DNA of 64,000 bases from Roseimaritima ulvae (GTDB lineage Bacteria > Planctomycetota > Planctomycetia > Pirellulales > Pirellulaceae): positions 1,612,001 to 1,676,000 of the forward strand of contig NZ_CP042914.1 of NCBI RefSeq assembly GCF_008065135.1, in the 5' to 3' direction. Positions 2,984 through 62,885 of the stretch are shown piece by piece (position 1 is the stretch's first letter; every line of letters begins with the position of its first letter). The notes beneath the pieces were generated by a model, which saw only the letters and a program-made list of their open reading frames with translations, was not told the DNA's origin and ran no database searches. Both the position numbers and the translations under genes were made by a program.

Positions 2984-3112
2984 CGCTGTGTCAAGATTTG
3001 ATCTTAGGGTCTGGCCGTCGCCGAAGTCGCCAGACTTTGGACCTTATTGCAGCGCCGATCCAGTCTCCGGCGACATCGGCTACCCTAAATGCAAATGTGG
3101 ACACAGCACTAG
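2980..3112. mobile_element. 133-bp CTAG-bounded repeat element, copy 1
   Basis: The element begins and ends with CTAG and has inverted ends of the form CTAGYGCTGTGTC. Its core is an imperfect palindrome with GCCGAAGTCGCCAGACTTTG on one arm and TCTCCGGCGACATCGGC on the other. A second copy of exactly 133 bp is at 54976-55108; by eye they match at about 113 of 133 positions. No coding capacity, so a MITE-like non-autonomous element is the simplest reading. Its first TAG is the stop codon of the DUF1501 gene. Confidence 0.65.
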
Positions 3113-32172: not shown

Positions 32173-32287
32173 CCCGTAGCCGAAGTCGCCAGACTTTGGA
32201 TGGCAGGGCGAAAGGTCCAAACTCTGGCGAGTTCGGCTACGGGGTGCGGGGATAAGCGTCCGAACTCTGGCGAGTTCGGCTACGGGG
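32173..32287. repeat. GTAGCCGAAGTCGCCAGAC palindromes
   Basis: One arm GTAGCCGAAGTCGCCAGAC and two inverse arms (AACTCTGGCGAGTTCGGCTAC at 32219 and 32264). It shares the core of the 133-bp element but lacks its CTAG ends. It separates the aldo/keto reductase stop from the sulfatase start. Confidence 0.7.
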
Positions 32288-48210: not shown

Positions 48211-49653
48211 ATGCTCGTCACCAAACCCATTCGCTGGAATTTAGGCTTACCTTCTCTCGTCTTGCTGCTGGTGTCCGCCATCGCAGCGAACGCGGATGAA
48301 CCACCGAACCGAGGTGAACCCGCAGGGGCCGGTGAGGCATCGCGGAGGCCGGATCTAGTTGTTTACCTGGCCGATGATTTGTCCGCGGCGGATTTGCCGC
48401 TGTACGGTGGCAAAAATATCCAGACCCCCTTCATCGACCGCTTGGCGGCTGAGGGGATGACGTTCGAGCGAGCGTTTGTGGCGAGCCCGTCTTGCGCGCC
48501 CAGCCGAGCGGCGTTGTTAACCGGGTTGATGCCGGCTCGCAATGGTGCCGAAGAAAACCACAGCTATCCGGGCGATGATATTCTTCGCTTGCCCGAGGTC
48601 CTGAATGAATTGGGCTACCAGACGGTCGCCTTTGGCAAAGTCGCTCATTCACGCAGCGTCGATTCCTATGGCTTTGACACGTACGATCGGAAGCAGGACA
48701 TTGCCGACGTTCGCAAGAACGTTCAGGCCTTTCTCGAAAACCGCACGGACCGGCGACCGCTGGCGTTATTTGTCGGCGTCTCGAATCCGCATGTGCCCTG
48801 GCCGGCTGAGTCGTCGGTGGATCCGACGGCGATGTCGATACCGCCGCAGTTGCTCGACACGCCGCGGACGCGTGTCCAAAGGTCGCGATACTTGCAGGAG
48901 GTCAAGGATCTGGACGCCTACCTGGGAGAGCTGCGTCGGTTGGTCGATAAACATTTGTCGTCGGACAAGCTGTTCGTGTTTTCCAGCGATCACGGCGCTC
49001 AGTTTCCGTTCGGCAAGTGGACGCTTTATGACGAAGGGATTCGCGTACCATTCATTGTGGTTAGGGAAGGCAAAATCAAGCCTTCCACCCGCACCGCCGC
49101 GATGGTTAGCTGGGTGGACGTGTTGCCCACCCTGATTGATGTTGCAGGCGGGCAAGTACCTGCGAATCTTGATGGTCGTTCGTTCGCGACGGTGCTTGAA
49201 GACGCCAATAGGTCTCATCGCAATCGCATCTTCACTACGCATAGTGGTGATAAGATGATGAACGTCTACCTGAGCCGTTCAGTCCGCAGCGAGCGTTACA
49301 AGTTTATCTGGAATCCTCATCCGGAATTCGCTTTCACAACGCACATCGATCTGTTGCTGCGAGAGACCTCCGGCGACTACTTCAAACAATGGAAGCAGCA
49401 AGCGGAGACCGACCAGCGTGCCGCTGAGCTATTGGCCAAGCATCACGGCCGTCCGGAGTTCGAACTGTTCGACTTGCAGCAAGACCCGCACGAGCAGACA
49501 AATCTGGCGGGACAAGCAAGCCTGGCCACGGTTCAGCAAGAATTGCAGGCGGAGTTGCAGGCTTGGATCAAGCAGCAGGACGATCAGCTGACCGTGTTCC
49601 ACGAACCACTGATGTTGGACGCCCCGCAGACCTGGGTGCCACGAAAACCATAG
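48211..49653 (+). CDS. Sulfatase (formylglycine-dependent), sulfamidase-like
   Basis: 480 residues. Signal peptide LPSLVLLLVSAIAANA. Metal site VVYLADDLSAADLPLYGG (D55-D56), FGly motif C95-A-P-S-R, FGKVAHSRSVDSYGFD and FSSDHGAQFPFGKWTLYDEGIRVPF. Closest in design to heparan N-sulfatase-like planctomycete enzymes. Expected to act extracellularly on sulfated glycans. ATG 48211. Confidence 0.9.
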   Translation: MLVTKPIRWNLGLPSLVLLLVSAIAANADEPPNRGEPAGAGEASRRPDLVVYLADDLSAADLPLYGGKNIQTPFIDRLAAEGMTFERAFVASPSCAPSRAALLTGLMPARNGAEENHSYPGDDILRLPEVLNELGYQTVAFGKVAHSRSVDSYGFDTYDRKQDIADVRKNVQAFLENRTDRRPLALFVGVSNPHVPWPAESSVDPTAMSIPPQLLDTPRTRVQRSRYLQEVKDLDAYLGELRRLVDKHLSSDKLFVFSSDHGAQFPFGKWTLYDEGIRVPFIVVREGKIKPSTRTAAMVSWVDVLPTLIDVAGGQVPANLDGRSFATVLEDANRSHRNRIFTTHSGDKMMNVYLSRSVRSERYKFIWNPHPEFAFTTHIDLLLRETSGDYFKQWKQQAETDQRAAELLAKHHGRPEFELFDLQQDPHEQTNLAGQASLATVQQELQAELQAWIKQQDDQLTVFHEPLMLDAPQTWVPRKP

Positions 49654-49662
49654 GTTGGCACG

Positions 49663-49690
49663 CCCACCTTCTGGCGAAGGTAGCTACGTT
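49663..49690. repeat. TCTGGCGAnGGTAGCTAC motif
   Basis: CTTCTGGCGAAGGTAGCTACG after the sulfatase stop is a third copy of the motif at 8731-8763 and 28731-28755. Short intergenic repeat. Confidence 0.45.
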
Positions 49691-49711
49691 TAGGATGGAC
49701 GCGGTAATTCA

Positions 49712-50908
49712 TTGACTCGGTGGAGTGATTTTTTGGACGTCGAACGCCGAGAACAGCTGCTCGCGGTCTATCGTGATGGCTTGTTGGACAACACGCTGCC
49801 GTTCTGGTTGAAGTTCGGCGTGGACGAACAGCACGGTGGCGTTCTAACGTCGCTGGATCGCCAGGGCCGTGTCGTCGATACCGACAAAGGCGTCTGGCAG
49901 CAGGCCCGCTTTACGTGGCTGCTCGGCGAACTCTACAACCGCGTCGAGCCCCGTCGGCAGTGGTTGGAGTTGGCGAAGCGAGGGGCCGCGTTTTTGGAAC
50001 AGCATTGCCTCGATCCAGACGACGGACGGATGTGGTTCCATGTCACCCGCGACGGCAAACCGATCCGCAAACGACGGTACGCATTCTCCGAGTGCTTCGC
50101 CGCGATTGCTTTTGGCGAACTGGCCCAGGCTACCGGGGAATCGCACTATGCCGAAAAGGCTCGGCAAGCGTTCCAAAAATTCCTCGACCACAACCTCCAT
50201 CCGCCTCGCAGCGCAGCGAAATTTACCGACACCCGGCCCACTCGCGGTATGGGCTTTCCGATGCAGACGATCGTCACGGCGCAGGAGCTGCGCGATTCGA
50301 TTGGGTTGCAAAATGCCGAGCAGTGGATCGACCGCAGCATCGAAGACATCCGCCGATTCCATTTCAAGGAAGATCTGCAGTGCGTGATGGAAACCGTCGG
50401 TCCTGATGGCCAGGTCATCGATCATTTCGACGGTCGCACACTGAACCCGGGGCACGCCATTGAAGGCGCCTGGTTTATCATGCTCGAAGGCAAGCTCCGC
50501 GGCGAACAAGGTTTGATCGGTACCGGCTGTCAGATGCTGGACTGGATGTGGGAGCGTGGTTGGGATTCGCAGCACGGTGGGATGTTGTATTTTGTCGACC
50601 TATACGGTTTGCCGGTGCAGGAGTATTGGCACGACATGAAATTCTGGTGGCCGCAGAACGAAACCATCATCGCGACGCTGCTGGCCTACATGCTGACCGG
50701 CGATCCCAAGTACGCGGACTGGCACCGCCAGATACACGACTGGGCCTATCGACATTTTCCGGACCCGGAGCACGGTGAGTGGTTTGGCTACCTGCATCGC
50801 GACGGTAGCCTCAGTTCCACGCTGAAGGGCAATCTCTGGAAAGGTCCCTTCCATCTGCCGCGGATGCAGTTGGTGTGTTGGCAACTGCTGGCTAATGAGG
50901 CTCGGTGA
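49712..50908 (+). CDS. N-acylglucosamine 2-epimerase family protein
   Basis: 398 residues, AGE/cellobiose-epimerase type (alpha/alpha)6 barrel. Conserved blocks: FWLKFGVDEQHGGVLTSLDRQG, KGVWQQARFTWLLGELYN, RYAFSECFAAIAFGELA, NPGHAIEGAWFIM and PQNETIIATLLAYMLTG, with the active-site His and Glu expected in the last blocks. Epimerises sugars at the reducing end. The frame begins at a TTG (49712); no ATG is near, so the exact start is uncertain. Its 3' end overlaps the convergent MarR gene by 17 bp. Confidence 0.85.
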   Translation: MTRWSDFLDVERREQLLAVYRDGLLDNTLPFWLKFGVDEQHGGVLTSLDRQGRVVDTDKGVWQQARFTWLLGELYNRVEPRRQWLELAKRGAAFLEQHCLDPDDGRMWFHVTRDGKPIRKRRYAFSECFAAIAFGELAQATGESHYAEKARQAFQKFLDHNLHPPRSAAKFTDTRPTRGMGFPMQTIVTAQELRDSIGLQNAEQWIDRSIEDIRRFHFKEDLQCVMETVGPDGQVIDHFDGRTLNPGHAIEGAWFIMLEGKLRGEQGLIGTGCQMLDWMWERGWDSQHGGMLYFVDLYGLPVQEYWHDMKFWWPQNETIIATLLAYMLTGDPKYADWHRQIHDWAYRHFPDPEHGEWFGYLHRDGSLSSTLKGNLWKGPFHLPRMQLVCWQLLANEAR

Positions 50909-51419
50909 TTTCGCCGGGCGTTAGGTGGGGGGCGGCGTCGATGCCGTCGGCGTCCATCAGGGCGGCAACGCGTTGCAGCGTGGCCAGGATTTGGGTTCGT
51001 TCCCACGACTGCAGCGAACTGAGCGAGTCGCGAAAGCGGTCCTGCATCAGGGAGGGGGAAGATGCCAGGACCTCGGAGCCGTGTTCGGAAATCGCGATTT
51101 GGACCGACCGCCGATCGGCTGAGCTGGGCTGGCGGTTGACCAGATCGCGAGCTTCCAGTCGCTTCAAAATGCCCGTCACCGTGGCTTGGCTAAGGTGCAC
51201 CGCGGCGGCGAGTTGTTTGGGAGAGGCCGTGCCCAGCCGCTGCAGTTCCTGCAGAACCGCCAGTTGGGGGCCGGTTAAACCGTAAGCGCTGACCAGGCTT
51301 CGCGAATGCAAATCGACGGCGCGGATGATTTTTCGAATCGCAGCGACGATTTGATCTTCGTGCGAAAGTGGGCGGGGGGCTGGGGGTGGAGCGGGCGTTG
51401 GCGGCGAGGGCGAATTCAT
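50892..51419 (-). CDS. MarR family regulator, divergent from the carbamoyl-compound cluster
   Basis: 175 residues. A Pro-rich disordered start, then winged helix: YGLTGPQLAVLQELQRLG, ASPKQLAAAVHLSQATVTGILKRLEARDLVNRQ (recognition helix) and DRRSVQIAISEHG (wing). It faces the operon that begins at 51.6 kb, across a region with a near-palindromic operator candidate at 51493-51510. EctR, a MarR protein that controls ectoine synthesis, shows that MarR proteins can run osmolyte genes. ATG 51419 is chosen over upstream starts because it opens the conserved part. Confidence 0.85.
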   Translation of the reverse strand: MNSPSPPTPAPPPAPRPLSHEDQIVAAIRKIIRAVDLHSRSLVSAYGLTGPQLAVLQELQRLGTASPKQLAAAVHLSQATVTGILKRLEARDLVNRQPSSADRRSVQIAISEHGSEVLASSPSLMQDRFRDSLSSLQSWERTQILATLQRVAALMDADGIDAAPHLTPGEITEPH

Positions 51420-51481
51420 GAATTCATAACCGCGCAGGGCGGCGAGGGAGTTGGCATGGGGCGATGGACGCAGTTTAGATA

Positions 51482-51596
51482 GTGCTTTCAACGCTAAGCA
51501 AATTCTGTTAGCCTGTGAAGATCGGAGACAGTCTCGGCTGGCAAGTTTGAGGCCATTTTCCGAAATTCAGCAAAGTGGGGATGCTTTCAACGCTAA
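51482..51596. repeat. 15-bp direct repeat exactly 100 bp apart
   Basis: TGCTTTCAACGCTAA occurs at 51482-51496 and 51582-51596. The first copy overlaps the operator-like palindrome, so paired binding of the MarR protein is possible. Confidence 0.7.
51493..51510. promoter_or_regulatory. Candidate MarR operator
   Basis: CTAAGCAAATTCTGTTAG, an 18-bp near-palindrome (CTAA...AATT...TTAG) of the size and AT-content typical of MarR sites, 74 bp upstream of the MarR start and on the other side facing the transporter operon. The CTAA half-site recurs at 51593. Confidence 0.5.
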
Positions 51597-51652
51597 TGAT
51601 GAGCGGCCCGCTTTGGTACGTAAAACGCAATTCTCAGGAGACTTACGGCTTG

Positions 51653-51883
51653 ATGGATGATCCAATCGAAACGGGAACCAAAACCTACGATGTTCAGCAG
51701 TTGGATGCTGACGGCGACGTGCTGGCGTCGGTCAAGGTAGAAGCTCTCAGCGGCGAGGCGGCAGCGAAACAGCTCCGCGAAGTCGCTTCCGGTACCGAAT
51801 CGATTGCGGTCTGTTTGGGCGACGAAGTCATGAATGAGATGGGCGTGCAGTACTGGCAACAACGGGTCCGGGGACGCCGTTGA
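51653..51883 (+). CDS. Small soluble protein of unknown function
   Basis: 76 residues, first gene of the run. Acidic (TYDVQQLDADGDVLASVKVEALSGEAAAKQLREVASGTESIAVCLGDE), no signal or membrane segment. AGGAG lies at 51636-51640, 12 bases before this ATG and 9 before an in-frame TTG. Its stop overlaps the next start (TGATG), indicating coupling. I recognise no family; a ligand-binding or regulatory subunit role is only a guess from position. Confidence 0.6.
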   Translation: MDDPIETGTKTYDVQQLDADGDVLASVKVEALSGEAAAKQLREVASGTESIAVCLGDEVMNEMGVQYWQQRVRGRR

Positions 51884-52275
51884 TGCCTCAGTCGGAAGCC
51901 ACGCTAGAATTTACCGTCGATCAATTCGATGACGTACGCGAAGGCCATGTCACGCTGGACTGGACGGCTGTCGATGCGGCGACGGTGTATTCGGTGACCG
52001 ACGAACGCAACGTGGAAGTGTTTCGGGGCACAACCCCGCAAGCCTTCGTTTCCGGCTTGCCCGATGGGCAGCACGTGTTTACCGTGGCCGCGATGGATGG
52101 ACAGGGCCAGGTGTTGGTCCAGTCGCCCACGCCCGCGGTCGTAACCGTGAAGCATTGGTCGCTGGGCATGGCCTTGTCGCTGTTCGTTTGCGGCTTTGTA
52201 GTGCTGTTAGCCGTCGTCGGCGTATTGGTGTTGGGCACACGGAATGCTAGATCACGTTCGGATGCAAGCGAGTGA
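51883..52275 (+). CDS. Membrane-anchored FnIII-like protein
   Basis: 130 residues. Residues ~10-85 have a fibronectin-III-like pattern (HVTLDWTAVDAATVYSVTDE, SGLPDGQHVFTVAAMDGQGQ); residues ~90-115 are a single membrane helix (MALSLFVCGFVVLLAVVGVLVLG) with a basic cytosolic end. No export signal is seen at the N-terminus, so the domain's side is unclear. It overlaps the upstream stop by one base and the transporter start by four (GTGA), so all three are translated together. It may be a transporter accessory subunit. Confidence 0.7.
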   Translation: MPQSEATLEFTVDQFDDVREGHVTLDWTAVDAATVYSVTDERNVEVFRGTTPQAFVSGLPDGQHVFTVAAMDGQGQVLVQSPTPAVVTVKHWSLGMALSLFVCGFVVLLAVVGVLVLGTRNARSRSDASE

Positions 52276-53762
52276 ACGTGAGCGAGGCAATGCTGATGAT
52301 TGATGCCGGCGTATTGGCGACGGCGATTCTGTCGCCCACCGCTGGGTATGTCTTGCTGGCCGTTTTTGGGGTCACCTGGGTGGCCTTGGGGATGTGGTGG
52401 GGACGTCGCGCAAAGTCCTATGACGGGTTTGCGGTGGCCGGCCGTAATGTCGGTTTGGCACTGGCTTCGGCCACGGCGGTGGCCACCTGGATCACCTCCA
52501 ATACAGTCATGTTGGCACCGCAGTTTGCCATGCAATTGGGCGTGTGGGGCGCGGTCGCTTATTCGACGGCCAGTTTCGGGTTGTTTGCTTTTGCGCCGAT
52601 GAGCGGCCGGATTCGAGAATTGATGCCGCATGGCTACACGGCTGTGGAATTTGTTCGCCGTCGCTACGGCAGGCTGGGCAGCATTCCCTTCCTGATCATC
52701 TCGTTCTTTTATGCTCTGACGTGGTTAATTTCGATGGCCATGGCCGGTGGCAAGCTGTTGAACGTGTTGTCAGGCATTCCCTATGAGGTCGGGATGACAG
52801 TGGTCGTCTCGGTGTGTGTGCTGTACACGCTGTTCGGGGGAATGTACGCGGTCATTGGCACCGATTTCATTCAGAGCCTGATCATCTTGATCGGTTTGGT
52901 GGTGGTGGCCACGGCGGTGTTGATGAATGTCAGCGTCGCCGAGGTGCATGAGACTTTGGTTACTGAACGTCCGATGCTGCTGTCGTTTCTGTTTCCGGCG
53001 GCATTGATGGCGTTGTTTAATAATATGTTGTTTGGGTTTGGCGAGATATTTCACTCCAACGTGTGGTGGAGCCGCGCGTTTGCGATGCGCGAGGGCGTGG
53101 GCCCGAAGGCTTATGCTCTGGGCGGCTTATTGTGGTTGCCGGTTCCGATCGTGGCCGGATTCTTGGGACTGGCCTCCCCCGCATTGGGGATTGGCATCAG
53201 CCAACCCGATACTGCGGGCCCCTTGGTGGCGGCCAACTTGTTGGGCACCGGCGGAGCGTTGCTGGTGTTTGTGGTCGTGTTCTGCTCGTTGGCGTCCAGT
53301 ATCGATAGTCTGCTGGCGGCCACCTCCGACATGGTCGTCAACGACATCGTCGAGCCGGTGGCGGGGCAGATGAGCGACGCGGCCAAGCGCAAAGCGGCGA
53401 TGGTAAGTATTATTGTTCTGGGGGTGGCGGCCTGGGCCGTGGCCTGGCCCAACGTGGGCACGCTGGCGACGGTGTTGTTTTTTGCCGGACCGCTGGTGGG
53501 CAGTTGTATTTGGCCGATTCTGGCCGGCCTGTATTTCCGCTCGGCCAGCCCGATCGCTGCCTGTGCGGCGATGGTCCTGGGCAGCGTCAGCGGCCTGGTG
53601 GCCTACTTTGCCATCGGCTGGTTCGTGGCCTCGTTGATCGGAGCCGCGGTTTCAGGGATCGTATTTGCGATCGCGGTGCATCTGTGGCCTGACGAGTTTG
53701 ATTTCCGTACGCTTCGCGAGCCTCCGGTGGATGTTCCCAGCAACCCAAACTCGGTAAGCTGA
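52272..53762 (+). CDS. Sodium:solute symporter
   Basis: 496 residues with about 13 membrane helices, SSS family. Typical blocks: VALGMWWGRRAKSYDGFAVAGR, ASATAVATWITSNTVML near the first substrate helices, and GTDFIQSLIILIGLVVVATAV around the sodium-site helix. Substrates of the family include urea, allantoin-like ureides, proline and osmolytes; the neighbours favour a ureido or amino-acid amide. The GTG start (52272) overlaps the previous stop. Confidence 0.9.
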   Translation: MNVSEAMLMIDAGVLATAILSPTAGYVLLAVFGVTWVALGMWWGRRAKSYDGFAVAGRNVGLALASATAVATWITSNTVMLAPQFAMQLGVWGAVAYSTASFGLFAFAPMSGRIRELMPHGYTAVEFVRRRYGRLGSIPFLIISFFYALTWLISMAMAGGKLLNVLSGIPYEVGMTVVVSVCVLYTLFGGMYAVIGTDFIQSLIILIGLVVVATAVLMNVSVAEVHETLVTERPMLLSFLFPAALMALFNNMLFGFGEIFHSNVWWSRAFAMREGVGPKAYALGGLLWLPVPIVAGFLGLASPALGIGISQPDTAGPLVAANLLGTGGALLVFVVVFCSLASSIDSLLAATSDMVVNDIVEPVAGQMSDAAKRKAAMVSIIVLGVAAWAVAWPNVGTLATVLFFAGPLVGSCIWPILAGLYFRSASPIAACAAMVLGSVSGLVAYFAIGWFVASLIGAAVSGIVFAIAVHLWPDEFDFRTLREPPVDVPSNPNSVS

Positions 53763-53766
53763 TAAG

Positions 53767-53886
53767 ATGTTTCCATTATGGCTGTTGCAAATTCTTGTGA
53801 TTGGCGGCTTGGTGCTTTGCGGCACCGGCGCGGCGGCGCTGATCGGCTTTTTAATCCTTGATTCCAAGAACAAGAAAATCTGGTAG
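53767..53886 (+). CDS. 39-residue membrane peptide
   Basis: Reads MFPLWLLQILVIGGLVLCGTG then an Ala/Leu stretch and a charged end SKNKKIW. A single membrane helix (about residues 4-31). It starts 4 bp after the symporter stop and ends 10 bp before the carbamoyltransferase ATG, so it sits exactly where a co-translated small subunit would be. Too short for ordinary gene calling. Could be a transporter regulatory peptide, or only a spacer. Confidence 0.6.
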   Translation: MFPLWLLQILVIGGLVLCGTGAAALIGFLILDSKNKKIW

Positions 53887-53896
53887 GACCGATCGG

Positions 53897-54979
53897 ATGA
53901 GTACCTCCGCGTCTAGTGCGGCGAGCAATGTCGCGCGCAATTCTAAGGGACGGATCCTGCATGCTGAAAAGCTGCTGGAGCTGACCGATGGCGTCGTCGA
54001 CTTGCCTCCCCTGCAGGCCCTGGCCGGCCAGTCGATTTTGAATCCGCGGCAGTTTGAACGCCGCAGCGTGGTCGCCTTGGCGCAACTGGCGGCGGTCCTG
54101 GAACTTCGGAACGTCGAAATTGAAAAACCGCTGGACGGCAAAATCGCCATCACCGCGTTTTTTGAAGCCAGTACTCGGACGCGATTGTCCTTCGAAAGCG
54201 CCGTCCTGCGACTCGACGGCAAAGTGCTGTCGGTGCCGGACGGGCAGGTAACCGGGATTGCCAAAGGCGAATCGCTGGCGGATATCGGGGAAATGTTTAA
54301 CACCTATGGCGACGTCGTGGTGATGCGTCATCCCGATACCAGTTGCCTGGACGAAATTCGCACCAACTTGCAGCGGCCGTTGATCAACGCCGGCAACGGC
54401 AGTGGCCACCATCCCACGCAGGCCCTGATCGATTGGTTCGCCTTACTCAAATGGCGCCCCGAGCTGTGCCTGCCCGATTGCCCGCCTGAAAAACGCATCC
54501 ACCTGGGCATCATCGGCACGCCCGGTTCGATGCGAGCGGTCAAAAGCTTTCTGCGGTTGGCCCTGATGTTCACCGGAGCCGTCTCCAAAATCACCATCAT
54601 TTCCGAGATGGCCGATCCGGTGGGCTTGGATTTGACCGAGCCGATTGAAGAGTCGCCGATTCCGATTGAAGTCATCAACGACGTCCAAGACGCGCTGCCT
54701 GAGCTGGACGTGATCTATGTCAATTCAATCGCATTTTTGGGTGACAGTTACCGCAATCTAGATGATCGCTATACCTTGCAGCGGAACAGTAATCTGAAAC
54801 CCGGAGCGGTGATCTTGCACCCCCTGGCCCGGAATATGGAACTGTCGGTCGATCTGGATGACACCGACCACAACCTGTATTTTGCGCAAGCGGCGGGAGC
54901 CGTGTTTGTCAGGCAAGCCATCCTGATCGCTGTGCTGGACCGACTGGACCGGATCGGCGACCTGGCCAAATCTCGCTAG
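53897..54979 (+). CDS. Aspartate/ornithine carbamoyltransferase homologue
   Basis: 360 residues. Carbamoyl-phosphate site: FFEAST then S92-T-R-T-R96, RHPDTSCLDEI and H172-P-T-Q-A-L. In E. coli PyrB an Arg and Gln (T-R-V-Q) bind the aspartate in the second-domain loop; the matching stretch here is DVIYVNSIAFLGD (271-283), with neither residue, and the later HPLPR is H308-P-L-A-R. It should therefore carbamoylate an amine other than aspartate. Longer than PyrB (~310). ATG 53897 has AGGA upstream. Its stop codon lies in the end of a 133-bp repeat element. Confidence 0.85.
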   Translation: MSTSASSAASNVARNSKGRILHAEKLLELTDGVVDLPPLQALAGQSILNPRQFERRSVVALAQLAAVLELRNVEIEKPLDGKIAITAFFEASTRTRLSFESAVLRLDGKVLSVPDGQVTGIAKGESLADIGEMFNTYGDVVVMRHPDTSCLDEIRTNLQRPLINAGNGSGHHPTQALIDWFALLKWRPELCLPDCPPEKRIHLGIIGTPGSMRAVKSFLRLALMFTGAVSKITIISEMADPVGLDLTEPIEESPIPIEVINDVQDALPELDVIYVNSIAFLGDSYRNLDDRYTLQRNSNLKPGAVILHPLARNMELSVDLDDTDHNLYFAQAAGAVFVRQAILIAVLDRLDRIGDLAKSR

Positions 54980-55108
54980 GGGCGTGGCAACATTTGATCT
55001 TCGGGTCTGGCCGTAGCCGAAGTCGCCAGACTTTGGACCTTTCTGCCGCCCCGATCCAATCTCTGGCGAGATCGGCTACTCTAAGTCTAAACGTGGACAA
55101 AGCACTAG
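54976..55108. mobile_element. 133-bp CTAG-bounded repeat element, copy 2
   Basis: Same length and ends as the copy at 2980-3112, and again its first TAG is the stop codon of the gene in front. It fills most of the 156-bp gap between the carbamoyltransferase and amidotransferase genes. Confidence 0.65.
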
Positions 55109-55135
55109 GCTTCCCTCTTAACAATAAATGACGAT

Positions 55136-57055
55136 ATGTGCGGCCTTACTGGATTTTGGGATCCTTCTAAAACACAACAACGCGAAATGCGGTTTGCCCT
55201 CGATGGCATGCTGGACGTGCTCGACCATCGCGGCCCCGATGAACGCGGCAGCCGACTGTATGTCGAGCAGGGTTTGGCGCTGGGGCATACCCGGCTGTCG
55301 CTTGTCGGGCTCGATCATGGGCACCAGCCGATCGAAACTTCCGACGGCGATTTTGCGGTCACCGTCAACGGCGAGCTGTACGGCTACAAACGCATCCGTA
55401 CGCAACTGGCTTGTGAGACGCTTTCGGTCGATCGCAAAAGTGACAGCGCGATCAGTTTGCCGCTGTACCTGAAACACGGTCTGGCCATGGTCGAACATCT
55501 GCGAGGTGAATTTGCCATCGTGCTGTACGACCACCGCGAGAAACGGCTGCTGTTGATTCGCGACCGGTTTGGCATCAAGCCGCTGTATTATGCCAAGACC
55601 GAACGAGGCATCGTCTGGGGCTCGGAGGTCAAGTCGATTCTCAAGCATCCCGACGTGCAGGCCAAATTGTGTCCCAAAGCGGCCTTGCACCAGATGATGC
55701 AAGTCATGGTTCCCGGTTCCACGTCCTTCGAAGGCGTGCAGGCGATCCAGCCCGGGCACATGATGATTGTCGAGCTGCGGGATGGTCGTTTGGAAACTCG
55801 CACCAAGCGATACTGGGATTTGAACTTCCCCACTTCGCATGATCCCAATCCGGATCCCGCCGAATACGTGCAGGGCGTGCAAGATCGCTTGGTCGATGCG
55901 GTGGCCACGCGGTTGGAAGCCGATGTGCCGGTCGGCTGTTACCTGTCGGGAGGTATCGATAGTTGCTCGATCCTGGGCTTGGCTACGACGCTGCAGCAAT
56001 CGCCGGTGAAAGCGTTCACGATCGCGTTTGACAATGCCGAATACGACGAATCGCATATCGCCAAACTGATGGCCGAGCGTACCGGTGCCGAGCAGGAACT
56101 GTTGCTGTTGACCGAAAAGGAACTGTATGGCCCCGCCTTTGAGCGGGCCACCTGGCACGCCGAACGCACCTTCTACAACACGCTGGCGGTTGCCAAGTGG
56201 CACATGAGTCGCCGCGTGCGGGCTTGCAATTACAAAGCCGTGGTGACCGGGGAAGGCTCCGACGAATTGTTCGGCGGCTATCCGTTCTTTAAACGCGATT
56301 GGTTGGGACGCGAGGACGAAGGCGGTATCTTTGCCGGCGCAATTCTGGCCGAAGAAGATTTGCAACACTCGGCTTGGCAGGACCTCTGCGGTTTCACCCC
56401 GTCATGGATCCAGCCCTGGATGCTGACGCTGGAAAAGATCCGCCCGTTGCTGTCCGACGATATGCAGGATTTGCTCCGCGAATACGATCCGGTGGCGGCG
56501 GTGGCCGGGGCCATCGATGCCGATGCGGTGGCCGGTCGCCATCGCTTAGACATCTCGCAGTACACCTGGTGCAAGACGATGCTGGAAGGTCAGATTCTGA
56601 CCTGGGGCGGCGACCGCATGGACATGGCCAACAGCATGGAAGCTCGCCCGGCGTTTTTGGACCATCACCTGGCGGAATACGCGGTCACGATTCCTCCGGA
56701 AGTCCGAATTCGCGACGGTGTGGAAAAATGGGTGCTGCGAGAAGCCATGGTGAATGTGTTGCCGCGCGAATTGTACGAACGCAAAAAGTTCGCATTCATG
56801 GCGCCGCCGGCACACACCGACCCGATCAAACGCGCCGCCATCCAAGAGATGATCGACCATTGGCTGACGCCCCAGCGCGTGCAAACCTTAAATGTGTTGG
56901 ATGCCGGTCGACTGAAACAATTCATTTCCGACGCTTGGCAGGAAACCGATGGCACGGTCGCCCGTCGCAATGACATCGTGATGAACCACTCGTTGCAACT
57001 GCATATGTTGCAAGGCCAGTACGTCGAAGGCCTGCCCCTGCCGGTCGTCGACTAG
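55136..57055 (+). CDS. AsnB-type glutamine-dependent amidotransferase
   Basis: 639 residues. Class II glutaminase domain with Cys2 as the nucleophile (MCGLTGFWD; DHRGPDERGSR; RLSLVGLDHGHQP) and an ATP-pyrophosphatase synthetase domain with SGGIDS (S271-S276). In asparagine synthetase it amidates aspartate via an AMP-ester. AsnO, a relative, makes the terminal amide of N-acetylglutaminylglutamine amide. Its place next to a carbamoyltransferase suggests it amidates an N-carbamoyl amino acid. No clear ribosome-binding site; the ATG is fixed by the need for Cys at position 2. Confidence 0.85.
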   Translation: MCGLTGFWDPSKTQQREMRFALDGMLDVLDHRGPDERGSRLYVEQGLALGHTRLSLVGLDHGHQPIETSDGDFAVTVNGELYGYKRIRTQLACETLSVDRKSDSAISLPLYLKHGLAMVEHLRGEFAIVLYDHREKRLLLIRDRFGIKPLYYAKTERGIVWGSEVKSILKHPDVQAKLCPKAALHQMMQVMVPGSTSFEGVQAIQPGHMMIVELRDGRLETRTKRYWDLNFPTSHDPNPDPAEYVQGVQDRLVDAVATRLEADVPVGCYLSGGIDSCSILGLATTLQQSPVKAFTIAFDNAEYDESHIAKLMAERTGAEQELLLLTEKELYGPAFERATWHAERTFYNTLAVAKWHMSRRVRACNYKAVVTGEGSDELFGGYPFFKRDWLGREDEGGIFAGAILAEEDLQHSAWQDLCGFTPSWIQPWMLTLEKIRPLLSDDMQDLLREYDPVAAVAGAIDADAVAGRHRLDISQYTWCKTMLEGQILTWGGDRMDMANSMEARPAFLDHHLAEYAVTIPPEVRIRDGVEKWVLREAMVNVLPRELYERKKFAFMAPPAHTDPIKRAAIQEMIDHWLTPQRVQTLNVLDAGRLKQFISDAWQETDGTVARRNDIVMNHSLQLHMLQGQYVEGLPLPVVD

Positions 57056-57081
57056 CCTGCTCCTACCACCTATAGGCATTT

Positions 57082-58311
57082 ATGGATCTTTCCGTCGACC
57101 TAGACCGCATCAAACACGACATCCTTTCGTTGGCTGAAATCGGCCGCAACGAACAGGATCGTGGTATTTATCGGATGGCCTTCACCGATGCCGATATGGA
57201 AGGCAAGCGTTGGCTCAGCGAGCGGATTAAAGACGCCGATCTGGAATGTTCGTTCGATGGCGCGGTGAACGTTTCAGGAACTCTGCCGGGGCGTTCAGCG
57301 GGACCACGGATTCTGGTCGGCTCGCATATCGATACCGTGCCCTGTGCCGGAGCGTTGGACGGTACGCTGGGCGTTGTCACCGGCCTGGAATGTTTGCGAT
57401 GTATGCGGCAAGCCGGGATCACGCCGCCACGCACGATCGAACTGATCGCCTTCAGTGACGAAGAAGGCCGGTTTGGTGGTATGTTCGGCTCGCAGTCGGT
57501 ATGCGGCGAAATCAATCCTCAGTCGCTGGCCCAAATGGCGGATCTGGGCGGCGTCACATTGCAGGACGAACTGCGTCGTCACGGCTATGACCCGATGGGC
57601 TCTCTGGATGCGGCTCGCGATCCTGAATCGATTGCCGCCTATCTGGAATTGCACATCGAGCAGGGCCCGGTGCTCGACCGAACCAAAAAATCAATCGGAG
57701 TCGTCGACGAAATTACCGGACTGTTTACCTGGTCGGTTTGCCTGCGGGGCGAAGCGAATCACGCCGGGACAACGCCCATGGATATGCGCAACGATGCCTT
57801 CATGGGACTGGCTGATTTTGCCCATGAAGTCCCTCGGGTGCTGGAAGAAAACGGCAGCGATCGCAGTCGTGCCACGATCGGCAAAGCCCAGATCCTGCCG
57901 GGGGCCACCAATACCGTGCCGGGACTGGTGGAGTTTTCGCTGGACGTACGCGATACGTCGGAAGCCGTCCTCGACGAGCTGGCTTCGGCGTTTCGCAAAG
58001 CATTGTCGGCGATCGCGCGACGCCGACATCTGATGTTTGAGTTCGAACAGAAGAGCTATCTGCAGCCGGTGGCCTGCGATCAAACGATCGTCAGCCGTTT
58101 GATGAAGCAGGCCGAACGCTTGCAGTTGGAGCATGTGAAGATGCCCAGTGGGGCCGCCCACGACGCCCAAATTATGGGCAAGATGGTGCCGGTGGGGATG
58201 ATCTTTGTGCCCAGCAAAAACGGCCAAAGCCACTCGCCCGCCGAATGGACCGCCTGGTCGGATATCGAAGCCGGAGCGAACTTGATGCTGCAAACTTTAC
58301 TTAATATGTAA
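57082..58311 (+). CDS. Hydantoinase/carbamoylase-family Zn amidohydrolase
   Basis: 409 residues, M20-like (TIGR01879 type). Metal ligands: H82 in GSHID, D93 in GALDG, E128 in SDEEGRFGGMFGS, H191 in LHIEQGPVLD and H384 near SHSPAEW. Also GEANHAGTTPM, SGAAHDAQ, FVPSKNGQSH. Members include N-carbamoyl-L-amino-acid hydrolase, allantoate amidohydrolase and beta-ureidopropionase. It would release NH3 and CO2 from an N-carbamoyl compound. ATG 57082, 26 bp after the AsnB-like stop. Confidence 0.9.
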   Translation: MDLSVDLDRIKHDILSLAEIGRNEQDRGIYRMAFTDADMEGKRWLSERIKDADLECSFDGAVNVSGTLPGRSAGPRILVGSHIDTVPCAGALDGTLGVVTGLECLRCMRQAGITPPRTIELIAFSDEEGRFGGMFGSQSVCGEINPQSLAQMADLGGVTLQDELRRHGYDPMGSLDAARDPESIAAYLELHIEQGPVLDRTKKSIGVVDEITGLFTWSVCLRGEANHAGTTPMDMRNDAFMGLADFAHEVPRVLEENGSDRSRATIGKAQILPGATNTVPGLVEFSLDVRDTSEAVLDELASAFRKALSAIARRRHLMFEFEQKSYLQPVACDQTIVSRLMKQAERLQLEHVKMPSGAAHDAQIMGKMVPVGMIFVPSKNGQSHSPAEWTAWSDIEAGANLMLQTLLNM

Positions 58312-58331
58312 TCACACTCATAAGAGACAAC

Positions 58332-59078
58332 ATGAATTCACCCGAGCACATCGACCCGCTGAAAGATGTCTACCACGATTCGTTCGTGGACAATCCGGCA
58401 CACCGCGAGTTCATGGTCGAAGGGCATACGGCGCTGCTGTGTATTGATTTGCAGTACCTGGATGCCGCGCCCGGCCATGGCGTGTTTAAAGATGCCGCGG
58501 AAAGCGGCGTGCCGGCGGAAGCCCAGGCGTATTACTTTGATCGCTTGGAGAACATGGTGCTGCCCAACGTGCGTGCCTTGCAAGATTCGTTTCGCTCGCA
58601 CGATATGGAAGTCATCCACACCCGCATCCAATCCTTGACCCAAGACGGACGCGATCGCGGCAAGGGGCATCGGCGATTGGGGCTGCTGGCGCCTCCGGGC
58701 AGTCGCGATGCGGATTTTTTGGAGCAGGTTGCGCCAAAGAGGCAGCGCGATGAAATCATCATCAACAAGACGGCCAGCGGTGTGTTTTCATCGACCAACA
58801 TCCATTACGTGTTGAAGAACATGGGCGTTGAGTCGTTGTTTGTGGTCGGCGTGTATACCAACGAATGCGTGGAAACGACCGTGCGAGATGCCTGCGACTT
58901 GGGCTATCTGGTGACGATCGTGGAAGATTGTTGTGCCACGGTCACGCCGGAATTGCACGACGCTTCGCTGGCCACGCTCCGCGACCGCTACGCACGAATC
59001 ATGAAACTCGAGGAAGCTCAGCAAGTCATCCGCCAACTGATTCCGCGACGAGGCAACACGACCCCGGCCTCGCCGTAG
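58332..59078 (+). CDS. Isochorismatase-family cysteine amidohydrolase
   Basis: 248 residues. The D-K-C triad is D39 (LLCIDLQYLD), K146 (IIINKTASGVF) and C179 (VVGVYTNECVETTVRDAC). This triad is found in N-carbamoylsarcosine amidohydrolase, ureidoacrylate hydrolase (RutB) and biuret hydrolase, all of which cut C-N bonds. In this cluster it could deamidate the product of the AsnB-like protein. ATG 58332, 20 bp after the previous stop; last gene of the run, followed by inverted repeats. Confidence 0.9.
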   Translation: MNSPEHIDPLKDVYHDSFVDNPAHREFMVEGHTALLCIDLQYLDAAPGHGVFKDAAESGVPAEAQAYYFDRLENMVLPNVRALQDSFRSHDMEVIHTRIQSLTQDGRDRGKGHRRLGLLAPPGSRDADFLEQVAPKRQRDEIIINKTASGVFSSTNIHYVLKNMGVESLFVVGVYTNECVETTVRDACDLGYLVTIVEDCCATVTPELHDASLATLRDRYARIMKLEEAQQVIRQLIPRRGNTTPASP

Positions 59079-59114
59079 CTTCGACTCTGCGAAGGACGCA
59101 TCCACGGCATCGAC

Positions 59115-59211
59115 GTAGCTTGACTCTCCGAGTCGAGCATTTCACGGATTCTAATCGCCCCGACTCGGGAGAGTCAGGCTACAGCGGCCCGACTCGGGAG
59201 AGTCAGGCTAC
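59115..59211. repeat. Inverted repeats at the end of the cluster
   Basis: One arm TAGCTTGACTCTCCGAGTCG (near 59116-59135) and two inverse arms (CGACTCGGGAGAGTCAGGC near 59161 and 59190). These can form hairpins after the isochorismatase stop and serve both convergent genes as a terminator. No T-tract. Confidence 0.6.
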
Positions 59212-60764
59212 TCGGGCTGCGCGCACCAGCGGATGGCGTCGACGATCATCGATTGCAGCGCTTCGTCGGCTTCGGGATGCGGACTGATGGAAATCACGCG
59301 GCCGTCTTGGAAGCGGCCGCTGACGATTGCCGGCGTGTCGACCATCGTGCCTCGCTGCGGATCGTAGCGGACCTGCTCGCTGCGGAACCAAGCCAGCGGA
59401 GTGTAGTCTTCGATTTCTGGATTTCCGTTGGGAGACAGGATCGGACCGTTGTGATAGCGGACATCAAACTGCACAGCGACGTCGGTGAACACGCGCTTCC
59501 CCGCTTCGCTCAGTTCCAACTGCACCCGCGTCGCATTGCCGCGATACCACATCTGCTTGCGGCCCACGCCGGGGATCTCCTTCGCTCCGGTGAAGACTTC
59601 TGCGTCCACCAGATCCAGCGACCAGGCGTAATGATCGGAACACAGGTACGCTCCGGCGCAAACGCCCAGATACCCACCTCCGTCCTGAACAAAGGCACGC
59701 ACGTGTTCACGTCCTTGTGAGCCGATTGCGCGGGCCTGCTTGCTGCCGCTGCCGCCGGGAAACAACAGCACGTCGAATTGGCTAAGCAGCGCGGGTTGGA
59801 TATCTTCCACGCCGATGAAATGGATTTGCATCCCGGCAGTCTGGTCGACGATCCGTGGGAAGTCCTGCTTGCCGCCGGAGCCGGTTCCGGGGCCGTCAAA
59901 CAGTCCGACCTGAATCCAACCCTGTCGAACGTTGGGCGTCAACTGTTTCGAACAGTCTCGGTCTAGCAAACCGATATCGTTCAGCAACGAATTCACCATC
60001 GCTCGCTGCTGGCGTGTTCGCAGTGAGAGCGGTTGGTTCTGATATGTGGTTTCGATGATGAATGTATTAGCACCGAGGGCTCGGTGCGCGGTACTGGCCA
60101 AACTGCCTTTAACCGGCCCCTTGTCGAGAGCCACGAAACGACGCTGCGAATCATCGACGTGTGCGTTGGCGGTCGCCAGAGCTCGCCGGACTAGCGGATC
60201 GAGCGAATCGCTGTGGTGATAGATGATGGAGGAGCCGACCGAACGATTTTTGCCTTTGGCAGGACGGTGCGAAATATAAAACTGATAGCCCTCATGTAAA
60301 TCGATAATCCAGTTAGGACGCAGTCGCTCGACAAGCTGCCACAGTTCGGTCGCCAGCGTTCCCGCCGTGATGATCTGGCCGTCTTCGCCGATAATAAAGT
60401 TTCGGTTCAGATCATGATGGGGCTTGTCGGTGTCGGGCAGATAACGCGTGCTGGCTTGGAGACCGGGTCGGTTGACGCCGGGGACCACGACCAGGCGACC
60501 TTTGGCGATCGGCCAATGACGAATCTGTTCGGCGGCGCGATAGCCTGCCGGTTCATTGCCGTGAATGCCGCCGGTGACCAACACGGTTTCGCCCACGACG
60601 CCGGAATCGATTATGTAATAGGGCGTCTCCCAACGTGTGCCGGCAGCGATTTTGCCAGTGGATACCGCGTTGGTGGCGAACACTGAGGAGTGGAAGACCA
60701 ACGTCAGGCCGATGGCACAAACGATTGCAAACGTCGTGAATGGTCGCAGTGGAGGGCAATACAT
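59208..60764 (-). CDS. M14-like deacylase fused to a BPL_N class I glutamine-amidotransferase-like domain
   Basis: 518 residues, exported (hydrophobic TFAIVCAIGLTLVFHSSVFA). Residues ~35-275 match aspartoacylase/M14 enzymes: GGIHGNEPAG (H68, E71) and DLHEGY (H157) as Zn ligands. Residues ~285-518 are a BPL_N/DJ-1-like fold, GGGYLGVCAGAYL with the Cys near 368. M14 enzymes remove peptides or acyl groups; the second domain in BirA binds no biotin. The combination is unusual. It runs convergent with the isochorismatase gene. ATG 60764. Confidence 0.8.
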   Translation of the reverse strand: MYCPPLRPFTTFAIVCAIGLTLVFHSSVFATNAVSTGKIAAGTRWETPYYIIDSGVVGETVLVTGGIHGNEPAGYRAAEQIRHWPIAKGRLVVVPGVNRPGLQASTRYLPDTDKPHHDLNRNFIIGEDGQIITAGTLATELWQLVERLRPNWIIDLHEGYQFYISHRPAKGKNRSVGSSIIYHHSDSLDPLVRRALATANAHVDDSQRRFVALDKGPVKGSLASTAHRALGANTFIIETTYQNQPLSLRTRQQRAMVNSLLNDIGLLDRDCSKQLTPNVRQGWIQVGLFDGPGTGSGGKQDFPRIVDQTAGMQIHFIGVEDIQPALLSQFDVLLFPGGSGSKQARAIGSQGREHVRAFVQDGGGYLGVCAGAYLCSDHYAWSLDLVDAEVFTGAKEIPGVGRKQMWYRGNATRVQLELSEAGKRVFTDVAVQFDVRYHNGPILSPNGNPEIEDYTPLAWFRSEQVRYDPQRGTMVDTPAIVSGRFQDGRVISISPHPEADEALQSMIVDAIRWCAQPE

Positions 60765-60860
60765 GGGGCGGCGGGAGGATCGTGGCAGGCGGGTGGAGTG
60801 GGCAGGCTTGTGGATAGCGCGGCGGTAGGTGGAGTAAAGCGTTATTCGATCCGCTGGCGA

Positions 60861-62885
60861 TCAGGCGGTCAAGTTGGCCAGTTCGTTGCTCAGCACGTTC
60901 AGGTTCTGTGCCGATTGTTCGATCTGTTTAATTGTTTCGGCTTGTCGTTGGGTGATATTGTGGATGCTGTTCATGCCTTCGTTCAATTGGCTCACACCGA
61001 CGGCTTGTTGGTTTGCGGAAGCCGAAATCTGCATTGCCAGTTTTGCCGAGGTGGAAAGCGTAGCGACCAGCTGATTGATCGTTTCGCCGGCTTCCCCGAC
61101 GACTCGGCTGGCCGTGCCCACGGCCTTGGTGCCATCTTCGGTCGACAGCACCGCTTCCTGAGTCGCGCGTTGGATTTCGGTGAGGATTTTGCGAACTTGA
61201 TGCGTGGCGTTTTTGGATTGTTGAGCCAGCGATTTGACTTCCGAGGCGACCACGGCGAAGCCCTTGCCGTGTTCACCGGCTCGCGACGCTTCGACAGCGG
61301 CGTTCAGGGCCAGCACGTTGGTTTGTTCGGCGATGTCGTTGACGGTGGCCGTGATTTCACCGATGGCCTGAGCGCGTTCGGCGAGGGAGAGGATGTTTTG
61401 GGCGAGCGATTCCACCTGAGTTTGCACCTGCTCCATGGCCTGGACCGATTCTTCGATCGCTGCGCTGCCGGCGTTGCCGATATCGTCGCAGTGGCGGGCT
61501 GATTCGGCGACTTCCTTGGCACGCTGGGCGGCCTGTTGCGCGGTGTGGGCGATTTCGTTCACGGTGGAAACGGTTTGCGCGACGGTGGAAGCTTGTTCCT
61601 GAGTGCCCACGGACTGCTCCGAGGTGGACTCCAGGATTTGGCGGCTGGCGACGGTCAGGCGTTGGACCGCATCGCGGATGGCGTGAAACAGATTTTGCCG
61701 TTGTGCCTCATCCTGTTTACGTACCGTAATATCCTGCAGCGTGGCGATGGTCAGGCGTTCGCCGGCGTAATCCAGCTCGCGGATTCGCAGCGCGATGGGG
61801 TATTCATCGCCTTGCGCGGTACGTGCTTGGACCTCGGATTCGTTGTGATCGGCCCTTCCGTGTTGGCGGCGTACCGCATCGCCTGAGGTACCGTTTGTAT
61901 GGAGTGCCGGGATGAAGCTGTCTACGGGGGTATCGATCGCGGTGTCGGCTTGGCAGCCCAGCAGACGTTCGGCGGCCACGTTCATCGAACGCAGGTGTCC
62001 GCGCGCGTCAACGGTCAGGATACCGTCGGCGGTCGAGTTCAAAATGGCTTGGGTCCGACGTTCTTCTTCCGCCAACCGCAGCAGCGTGGCTTGCATGTTT
62101 TCAATCATCTGGTTGAAGGCCGTCGCCAGGGCCCGCAGTTCGTCTTGCGAACGCAGTTCGATGCGTTCGTCCAGCTGGTCAAATAATCCACGCGTGGCAT
62201 TTTCAGCGATGCGGGTGGCGATCCGACGCATTTTTTCGATGGGACCGATGATCGTGGTAGCGGTTAGGTAACCGAGCGCCCCGACAAACAAGGTTAGACA
62301 GATGATCAAGTAGAAGTACCACCGGCTGGAGGCTTCAAATCGCTGCTCGGCCTCGGCATAGACGCTGTCCGCATTTTGTTGTTTCTGCTGCATCCAATCA
62401 TTCAAACGGTCTTTGACGATTTGAAACTGTTCCTTTTCGGCTTGGATGGAATTGATAAAGGCTTCTTCACGGTAGTCGTTTAGGACTTTGTTGACGGTGA
62501 CGTCTTTGATCGCAACGTAGCGTTCCCAACTGGCCTGCAGCGCCGCTACCGCTTCTCGTTCTTGCTTGGTTCTGCCGTTGGGATCCCAATTCGTCAGCAC
62601 CGCGTTCAAATCTTGCGTGACGCGTCGTTGCTGATCGTTCAGGGTCCGACGCATCTTTTCGTCGGGCGACATCACCATGCGCATCGACAATTCGCGCAGT
62701 TGATTCAACGGTTCGGTGATCTGTTGGGCGACGTTGCGAAATTCCACCGCCGTCTCACGGACTTCACGAACCGATTGAAAGGTCTGGCGGTTGGTCCGCA
62801 CGCCAAACATCCCCAACGCACAAAAAGCCGCGATCGAGACGACCACCAAGACGACTAGTTTTAGTAAAACGCCGCGATTTAACAT
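60861..62885 (-). CDS. Methyl-accepting chemotaxis protein
   Basis: 674 residues. First membrane helix LLKLVVLVVVSIAAFCALG; an extracytoplasmic helical sensor (~30-190); second helix ~190-215; HAMP (GPIEKMRRIATRIAEN); a PAS-like domain (AILNSTADGILTVDARGHL); and a signalling domain with EIAHTAQQAAQRAKEVAES and the conserved hairpin EQTNVLALNAAVEASRAGE. It should signal to a CheA/CheW complex. The ATG overlaps the preceding stop (TGATG), so it is coupled to the solute-binding protein. Confidence 0.9.
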   Translation of the reverse strand: MLNRGVLLKLVVLVVVSIAAFCALGMFGVRTNRQTFQSVREVRETAVEFRNVAQQITEPLNQLRELSMRMVMSPDEKMRRTLNDQQRRVTQDLNAVLTNWDPNGRTKQEREAVAALQASWERYVAIKDVTVNKVLNDYREEAFINSIQAEKEQFQIVKDRLNDWMQQKQQNADSVYAEAEQRFEASSRWYFYLIICLTLFVGALGYLTATTIIGPIEKMRRIATRIAENATRGLFDQLDERIELRSQDELRALATAFNQMIENMQATLLRLAEEERRTQAILNSTADGILTVDARGHLRSMNVAAERLLGCQADTAIDTPVDSFIPALHTNGTSGDAVRRQHGRADHNESEVQARTAQGDEYPIALRIRELDYAGERLTIATLQDITVRKQDEAQRQNLFHAIRDAVQRLTVASRQILESTSEQSVGTQEQASTVAQTVSTVNEIAHTAQQAAQRAKEVAESARHCDDIGNAGSAAIEESVQAMEQVQTQVESLAQNILSLAERAQAIGEITATVNDIAEQTNVLALNAAVEASRAGEHGKGFAVVASEVKSLAQQSKNATHQVRKILTEIQRATQEAVLSTEDGTKAVGTASRVVGEAGETINQLVATLSTSAKLAMQISASANQQAVGVSQLNEGMNSIHNITQRQAETIKQIEQSAQNLNVLSNELANLTA

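Follow-up and report, generated by a model that had tools for sequence, protein, structure and literature searches.

The window analysed here is a stretch of 64,000 nucleotides from Roseimaritima ulvae (contig NZ_CP042914.1, positions 1,612,001 to 1,676,000), a species whose 8.2-Mb genome forms a single contig. At 50892-59078 it carries a gene for a MarR-family regulator, divergent from a run of eight genes, p102-p131-SSF-p39-CT-ASN-HYU-ISO. This operon is a real, conserved metabolic system that occurs across several bacterial phyla. With a probability of about 0.58, it makes, recaptures and, where HYU and ISO are present, degrades an N-carbamoyl alpha-amino-acid amide. N-carbamoylation combined with alpha-amidation is the simplest joint use of the transcarbamylase CT and the amidotransferase ASN, and it is quite probable that both modifications are made on one amino acid. 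The genes and a candidate regulator site are as follows.

50892-51491, minus strand: MarR-family regulator (PF01047, E-value 1.9e-16)
51575-51883, plus strand: p102, small protein (perhaps 76 amino acids (aa) if ATG 51653 is the start)
51880-52275, plus strand: p131, FnIII-like domain and C-terminal membrane helix (alternative ATG at 51883)
52272-53762, plus strand: SSF, sodium:solute symporter (PF00474, E-value 1.2e-17)
53767-53886, plus strand: p39, single-helix membrane micropeptide of 39 aa ending in D-x6-W
53897-54979, plus strand: CT, transcarbamylase (OTCace_N/OTCace; ATG at 53897)
55136-57055, plus strand: ASN, glutamine-dependent AsnB-family amidotransferase (Asn_synthase and GATase domains)
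57082-58311, plus strand: HYU, member of the M20 hydantoinase/N-carbamoyl-amino-acid hydrolase family (profile match)
58332-59078, plus strand: ISO, isochorismatase-family cysteine amidohydrolase (profile match)
51484-51497 and 51583-51596: perfect 14-bp direct repeat GCTTTCAACGCTAA, candidate regulator site between the MarR gene and p102

With the listed starts, gene spacing is operon-like. The pairs p102/p131 and p131/SSF overlap by 4 bases each, and the intergenic gaps measure 4 (SSF-p39), 10 (p39-CT), 156 (CT-ASN), 26 (ASN-HYU) and 20 bases (HYU-ISO). Start refinements are possible for p102 (ATG 51653), p131 (ATG 51883) and CT (ATG 53897); the true start of the MarR gene is perhaps ATG 51419, with some uncertainty. 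Every gene named in a first-pass annotation of this DNA is found at the same place and in the same family. The observation is confirmed and now stronger than when first reported.

Conservation of the gene set

A strong CT match (at least 594 bits) was detected in 7 of 60 genomes of relatives, the window's own included; the next match scored 87 bits. All six other CT-positive relatives possess p131-SSF-p39-CT-ASN. HYU-ISO follows ASN in four of them, is not at that place in G016 and is cut off by a contig end in G003; both latter genomes have the pair on another contig. Among 392 Planctomycetota genomes, CT stands out in two, with 741 bits in the window's own and 537 bits in G084. The remaining matches reach at most 167 bits and were read as ordinary aspartate transcarbamylases (ATCases). 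G084 contains the gene set minus p102, split into two divergent units, one with MarR, HYU and ISO and the other, on the opposite strand, with p131, SSF, p39, CT and ASN.

Further relatives were taken from a scan of named genomes ranked by CT similarity, the best 80 of 117 being kept. These 80 loci are not a random sample, as many are close relatives (18 are Pirellulales), and two of them (L056 and L069, contigs of G001 and G003) also belong to the set of relatives' loci above. Hosts in the best 80 comprise Planctomycetota, Verrucomicrobiota, Bacteroidota, Myxococcota and metagenome-assembled genomes (MAGs) labelled GN15 and Calditrichaeota, where the phylum of named genera is the one we take them to belong to. 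SSF is present in 79 of the 80 loci and ASN in 78; the exceptions are L076, L106 and L119, where a contig end is close to CT. Since SSF, CT and ASN are on the same strand in all 77 loci showing the three of them, the gene set is beyond chance, and the first-pass annotation is supported in that these genes belong to a single conserved system.

A simple spacing filter was failed by 9 of the 77 loci, mostly owing to negative gaps that arise because the filter measured stop-to-stop frames. Wide spacing was seen between CT and ASN in L087 (2.8 kb) and between SSF and CT in L129 (about 2.1 kb). The insert of about 2.8 kb in L087 holds a weak HYU-like match (27%). Neighbouring open reading frames (ORFs) of at least 90 aa were clustered and the 25 commonest families were listed. 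The commonest one outside the gene set is sulfatase-like, a label we presume from reading the sequence by eye. It is present in 11 of 80 loci, of which 7 belong to Pirellulales. A cluster of ORFs from 22 loci looks like an antisense frame. When CT was compared with plasmids (tblastn), no match above 35.3% identity was listed.

Predicted substrate preference of the transcarbamylase

Three proteins of the window's genome contain the OTCace_N domain, two of which bear PyrB and ArgF motifs, and exactly three such transcarbamylases are found in each of 13 further genomes (13/13). CT is thus an extra copy. To describe its residues, 82 CT rows (the window, the 80 loci and L054) were aligned with E. 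coli PyrB and 18 co-resident references, 11 PyrB-type and 7 similar to ornithine transcarbamylase (OTCase). Since L054 is the same place as L078, which in turn is the locus of G084, 81 of the rows are distinct; the duplicate is also included in the ASN, SSF, HYU and ISO rows counted below. The long reference ORFs L149, L152 and L154 were left out of the comparison, and L167-L177 are CT copies, not references.

In E. coli PyrB numbering, S52, T53, R54, T55, K84, R105, H134 and R167 are kept in 82/82 CT rows and Q137 in 81, so that most of the carbamoyl-phosphate residues are retained. CT therefore contains the superfamily motifs SxRT (S, R and T in 82/82) and HPxQ (H in 82 rows, Q in 81). On the contrary, R229 is replaced by S (81 rows) or A (1) and Q231 by A (79) or T (3), whereas all 11 co-resident PyrB-type references retain both residues. 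In ATCases, the beta-carboxyl of aspartate is anchored by R229 and Q231, and its alpha-carboxyl is positioned with the help of R167 and K84 (Shi et al., PMC4581275). With the first pair lost and the second kept, the expected substrate of CT is an alpha-amino acid whose side chain differs from that of aspartate.

Motifs of other transcarbamylases are likewise absent. RxQxER, the 240s-loop motif of ATCases (PMC4581275), is disrupted in 82/82 CT rows by the S/A and A/T just described. At the position of DxxxSMG, the OTCase motif whose SMG is present in the 7 OTCase-like references, three CT rows read VNSIAFLGD, MNSIALLGD and MNSIAFLGD. By its motifs, CT thus falls outside both the aspartate and the ornithine carbamoyltransferases. 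H(T/S)LP, described for ureidoglycine transcarbamylase (PMC4581275), is not found either, as all 82 rows have P at the T/S position. As for the side-chain pocket, its loop N-S-I-A carries no Arg and a basic residue follows Y285 in 18 aligned CT rows, features that would not decide between glutamine and glutamate.

In a tree of the 82 CT rows and 19 other transcarbamylases, the CT sequences group in a separate clade (support 0.86). The predicted structure of CT (mean confidence score pLDDT 85.3) matches ATCases in all 50 listed Foldseek hits; ATCases are described as unknotted, unlike the knotted AOTCase, SOTCase and YTCase with their proline-rich loop (PMC4581275). CT thus shares with PyrB its fold, SxRT and HPxQ motifs, R167 and K84, and differs from it in the loss of R229 and Q231, in two further positions (S80 and the final P of HxLP, see below) and in adjoining ASN and SSF.

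These nearest structures would suit a different explanation, in which CT duplicates the aspartate transcarbamylase, ASN is a normal asparagine synthetase and the two are linked to supply pyrimidines or asparagine. ASN also passes TIGR01536, the generic asparagine synthase model (389 vs 267 bits). We nevertheless consider this explanation very improbable: the beta-carboxyl residues are lost in every CT row and kept in the PyrB-type proteins of the same genomes, CT scores 163 against the PyrB model with its cut-off of 263, and two other transcarbamylases are present in all 13 genomes. Scarcely more probable is that CT carbamoylates an imported amine instead of a common amino acid, SSF being the importer of this precursor. 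The presence of SSF with CT and ASN in all 77 complete loci would fit such a role, but the invariance of R167 and K84 favours an alpha-amino acid.

Features of the amidotransferase

ASN was compared in 74 rows, namely the window and those 73 of 79 matches that were long enough. The glutaminase Cys is found in 72/74 rows; S, G, G and D of the SGGxDS loop and the catalytic Lys are found in 74/74. We presume the roles of the N-terminal Cys, the loop and the Lys to be those usual in the family. The acceptor site reads nearly invariantly FYNTL-(G/A/S)VAK, so that TTIR of E. coli AsnB, which we take to be an acceptor-site motif, is represented by NTL and a gap in 74/74 rows. This replacement is weak evidence against an asparagine synthetase of the E. 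coli AsnB type, since the other AsnB-like proteins compared also lack TTIR.

Besides passing the generic model, ASN reaches 267 bits against TIGR03104, the model of AsnO, the amidotransferase of N-acetylglutaminylglutamine amide (NAGGN) synthesis, where the cut-off is 570. In a tree, ASN sequences form one clade (support 0.90), and the nearest protein in the small set used is encoded by a Methylobacterium nodulans plasmid. A pSymB match in L178 was considered as Sinorhizobium meliloti AsnO and rejected; the actual AsnO is a separate match. The window's genome contains ten other Asn_synthase-domain matches. As CT scores best against ATCase models and ASN passes a generic asparagine synthase model, a pathway of this kind is easily hidden in annotation.

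The symporter and its small companions

SSF residues S342, S343 and D345 are present in 77/77 rows. A small ORF ending in D-x6-W is located between SSF and CT in 79/79 loci, as compared to 14 of 1600 random 270-base windows, and the 39-residue membrane peptide noticed previously is therefore real. In L129 its p39 is doubtful because the SSF frame is broken there. The p39 alignment (n=19) shows invariant L25, D32 and final W39. Pfam and NCBIfam yielded no convincing match for p39 but scattered weak ones, the best being CcmD with an E-value of 0.0037 for one member. We regard p39, a conserved transporter-linked peptide of 39 aa without a family model, as a candidate symporter subunit.

Of 74 testable loci, 69 have an ORF ahead of SSF that is 70 aa or longer and hydrophobic towards its C-terminus; 16 of these ORFs align. 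The AlphaFold2 model of p131 has a mean pLDDT of 94.2 and its best Foldseek matches are FnIII-like modules (E-value 2.8e-4); Pfam matches of p131 relatives are weak. Matches to p102 were found in 8 of the 80 loci, all with Pirellulales-type names, and in L024. Homology begins at residue 29-36 of p102 in seven of the eight loci and at residue 15 in L056. No Pfam or NCBIfam match to p102 was obtained at an E-value of 0.001.

Distribution of the hydrolase pair

Over the 80 loci, HYU and ISO are both present in 44, both absent in 32, and HYU is seen alone in 4. Where at least 7.5 kb is available on each side of CT (39/80 loci), 29 loci contain both genes, 10 neither and none only one. In the HYU-only loci, L110 and L123 are cut by a contig end and ISO of L101 is on another contig; for L129, see below. 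HYU precedes ISO in all 44 loci with both. The pair lies downstream in the same direction in 29 of them, upstream and divergent in 10, and downstream on the other strand in 5.

Three of the ten pair-less loci belong to genomes with the pair elsewhere: in G450 it shares the contig of CT at a distance of about 15 kb, in G465 it is on another contig and in G467 on two contigs. The other seven are without an orthologue; all that G455 and G462 contain is a HYU homologue (37% and 32%, respectively). In total, 7 of 15 genomes checked carry the synthesis genes and no HYU or ISO orthologue; 12 of these 15 were chosen because HYU-ISO was unseen beside CT, and some are MAGs that may be incomplete.

We examined co-occurrence of CT and ISO in the order to which Haloferula luteola (G457) belongs (239 genomes). 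Both are present in 21 genomes and neither in 215; CT alone was found in two (G549, G606) and ISO alone in one (G603). This corresponds to a Fisher p of 8e-27, with relatedness not corrected. In the 392 Planctomycetota genomes, CT and ISO occur in the same two, one being the window's own. ISO thus occurs almost only where CT does. Such a pattern looks more like degradation of the cell's own product than like a general scavenging enzyme.

Both hydrolases retain the residues that we presume to be functional: H82, D93, E127, H191, H384 and R290 of HYU in 48/48 rows (taken to be metal ligands and the substrate-binding Arg) and D39, K146 and C179 of ISO in 46/46 rows (taken to be the D-K-C triad of isochorismatase-fold amidohydrolases). 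The best equivalog-type family of HYU is the N-carbamyl-L-glutamate hydrolase ErtE, with 365 bits and thus below the cut-off of 520.

The main alternative in the first-pass annotation was scavenging of ureide nitrogen. In such a scheme, SSF would import a ureide, ISO and HYU would break it down and CT would run in reverse to recover carbamoyl phosphate. Some family assignments speak for it: HYU passes the allantoate amidohydrolase model (526 vs 399 bits), biuret hydrolase and RutB are among the nearest named families of ISO, and catabolic transcarbamylases exist (PMC4581275). The distribution has weakened it, as 7 of the 15 genomes (mostly chosen for lacking the pair beside CT, some of them MAGs) contain an orthologue of neither HYU nor ISO, genomes without CT hardly ever possess ISO, and the 15 loci having HYU-ISO on the other strand still have SSF together with CT-ASN. 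Furthermore, ASN would, by what is known of its family, spend ATP and glutamine, CT has P where the ureidoglycine transcarbamylase motif has T or S, and no listed family beyond the set occurs in more than 11 of 80 loci, though no search was aimed at carbamate kinase. Scavenging is therefore improbable in our view.

Proposed pathway and its product

In the pathway that we favour, CT would use carbamoyl phosphate to carbamoylate an amino acid, neither aspartate nor ornithine, at its alpha-amino group. At the expense of ATP and glutamine, ASN would then amidate the alpha-carboxyl, so that the amino acid ends up doubly capped. SSF, together with p39 and the membrane-anchored FnIII protein p131, would carry out Na+-coupled re-uptake of the product or its precursor. 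ISO would remove the amide and HYU the carbamoyl group, with formation of the amino acid, ammonia and CO2, a degradation arm expected only where HYU-ISO is present. The MarR protein is the likely local repressor. Making and stepwise breakdown of one compound, as had been suggested previously, fits the gene content.

A similar organization is known in Pseudomonas aeruginosa, where the NAGGN operon, controlled by a divergently encoded MarR repressor, combines an AsnB-type enzyme with a hydrolase and an acyltransferase (PMC8070244). The AsnO precedent for amidation invoked in the first-pass annotation is thus real. Both operons (there AsnO-Ngg-peptidase with MarR PA3458) combine an N-capping enzyme, an AsnB-type amidotransferase, a hydrolase and a divergent MarR gene, and the product would in both cases be a doubly capped amino-acid derivative. 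Unlike in the NAGGN operon, a carbamoyl cap from a transcarbamylase would replace the GNAT-made acetyl group and peptide bond, SSF, p39 and p131 genes are present, the hydrolases are different and ASN stays far below the TIGR03104 cut-off.

N-carbamoyl-L-glutamine 1-amide carries exactly the two modifications proposed here. It is a compatible solute of Ectothiorhodospira marismortui (PMC1224877; the compound is also named in PMC7824335), with a structure reported in 1991 (reference in PMC1224877). Titles of the best 80 of 117 relatives include no Ectothiorhodospira, and neither synthesis genes for this compound nor the present operon are described in titles and abstract openings of the literature searched. 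It is the best single candidate for the product. Glutamine as the amino acid is a tentative assignment, and a compatible-solute role has about even odds. Somewhat short of even is the broader proposal of a multi-phylum pathway to N-carbamoyl amino-acid amides, which would comprise a new transcarbamylase specificity (e.g. for glutamine), an ISO-HYU recycling pair and SSF with p39 and FnIII partners. Altogether, the interpretation given in the first-pass annotation is partly supported.

The same chemistry might serve another purpose: the capped amino acid could store nitrogen, be a metabolite that is secreted or acts as a signal, or be built into a larger compound. We consider this rather unlikely. 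In its favour, the importer is conserved with the synthesis genes, the solutes listed for Rhodopirellula baltica (see below) include no such compound, and some hosts, such as Chitinophaga japonensis and Sphingobacterium, are presumably terrestrial. On the other side, most named isolates in the list of 80 loci are, as we take it without a count, marine, and no further gene family recurs widely nearby. The NAGGN parallel (PMC8070244) also points to an osmotic role.

Several other observations, besides the terrestrial hosts, weigh against the pathway as proposed. In CT, S80, which we take to be a carbamoyl-phosphate contact, is G in 82/82 rows. The P268 column contains A (81) or S (1) and so departs from the family-wide HxLP; in the same alignment it is without P in the 18 co-resident PyrB/ArgF references too. 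The basic residue after Y285 leaves glutamate a possible substrate. In the tree, S. meliloti AsnO is not the sister group of ASN, and L129 has HYU with no ISO in view. The nearest named relatives of ISO include biuret hydrolase, RutB and carbamoylsarcosine amidase, and ISO and HYU could therefore have opposite tasks. Finally, such a solute is missing from the main solutes determined in Rhodopirellula baltica by nuclear magnetic resonance (NMR), which are sucrose, glutamate, trehalose and mannosylglucosylglycerate (MGG), and "carbamoyl" is absent from the main text of that paper (PMC3694870). The operon is, however, present in a genome named R. baltica (BR-MGV), which may or may not be the strain of the NMR study. 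The main text of an R. baltica stress transcriptome paper contains no word beginning with carbamoyl, asparagine, isochorismatase or symporter (PMC2754498).

If the proposal is true, the operon makes a rare salt-protecting compound accessible to genetics and provides concrete candidate genes. It is compact, spread over several phyla and present in cultured bacteria.

Regulator, repeats and neighbouring genes

A MarR match was found in 22 of 81 loci. The 14-bp repeat was considered as a shared MarR operator, which was not borne out: exact copies occur only in the window and, as one copy, in L056, and it is not general in the 17 loci scanned. Rfam detected no RNA in 49000-61000.

The CT-ASN gap contains an inverted repeat around GTAGCCGAAGTCGCCAGA (55013-55079), which is also present at 3017-3083, 32176-32283 and 34665-34682. 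Eight matches with at most 2 mismatches were found vs 0 expected, and the element looks like a REP-type interspersed repeat.

Adjoining the operon, the minus-strand gene at 59208-60764 codes for a protein in which AstE/AspA-type and BPL_N domains are joined; no match to it was found in ten related loci searched. Upstream of the operon, the window contains a sulfatase-like gene at 48211-49653, labelled by reading of its sequence.

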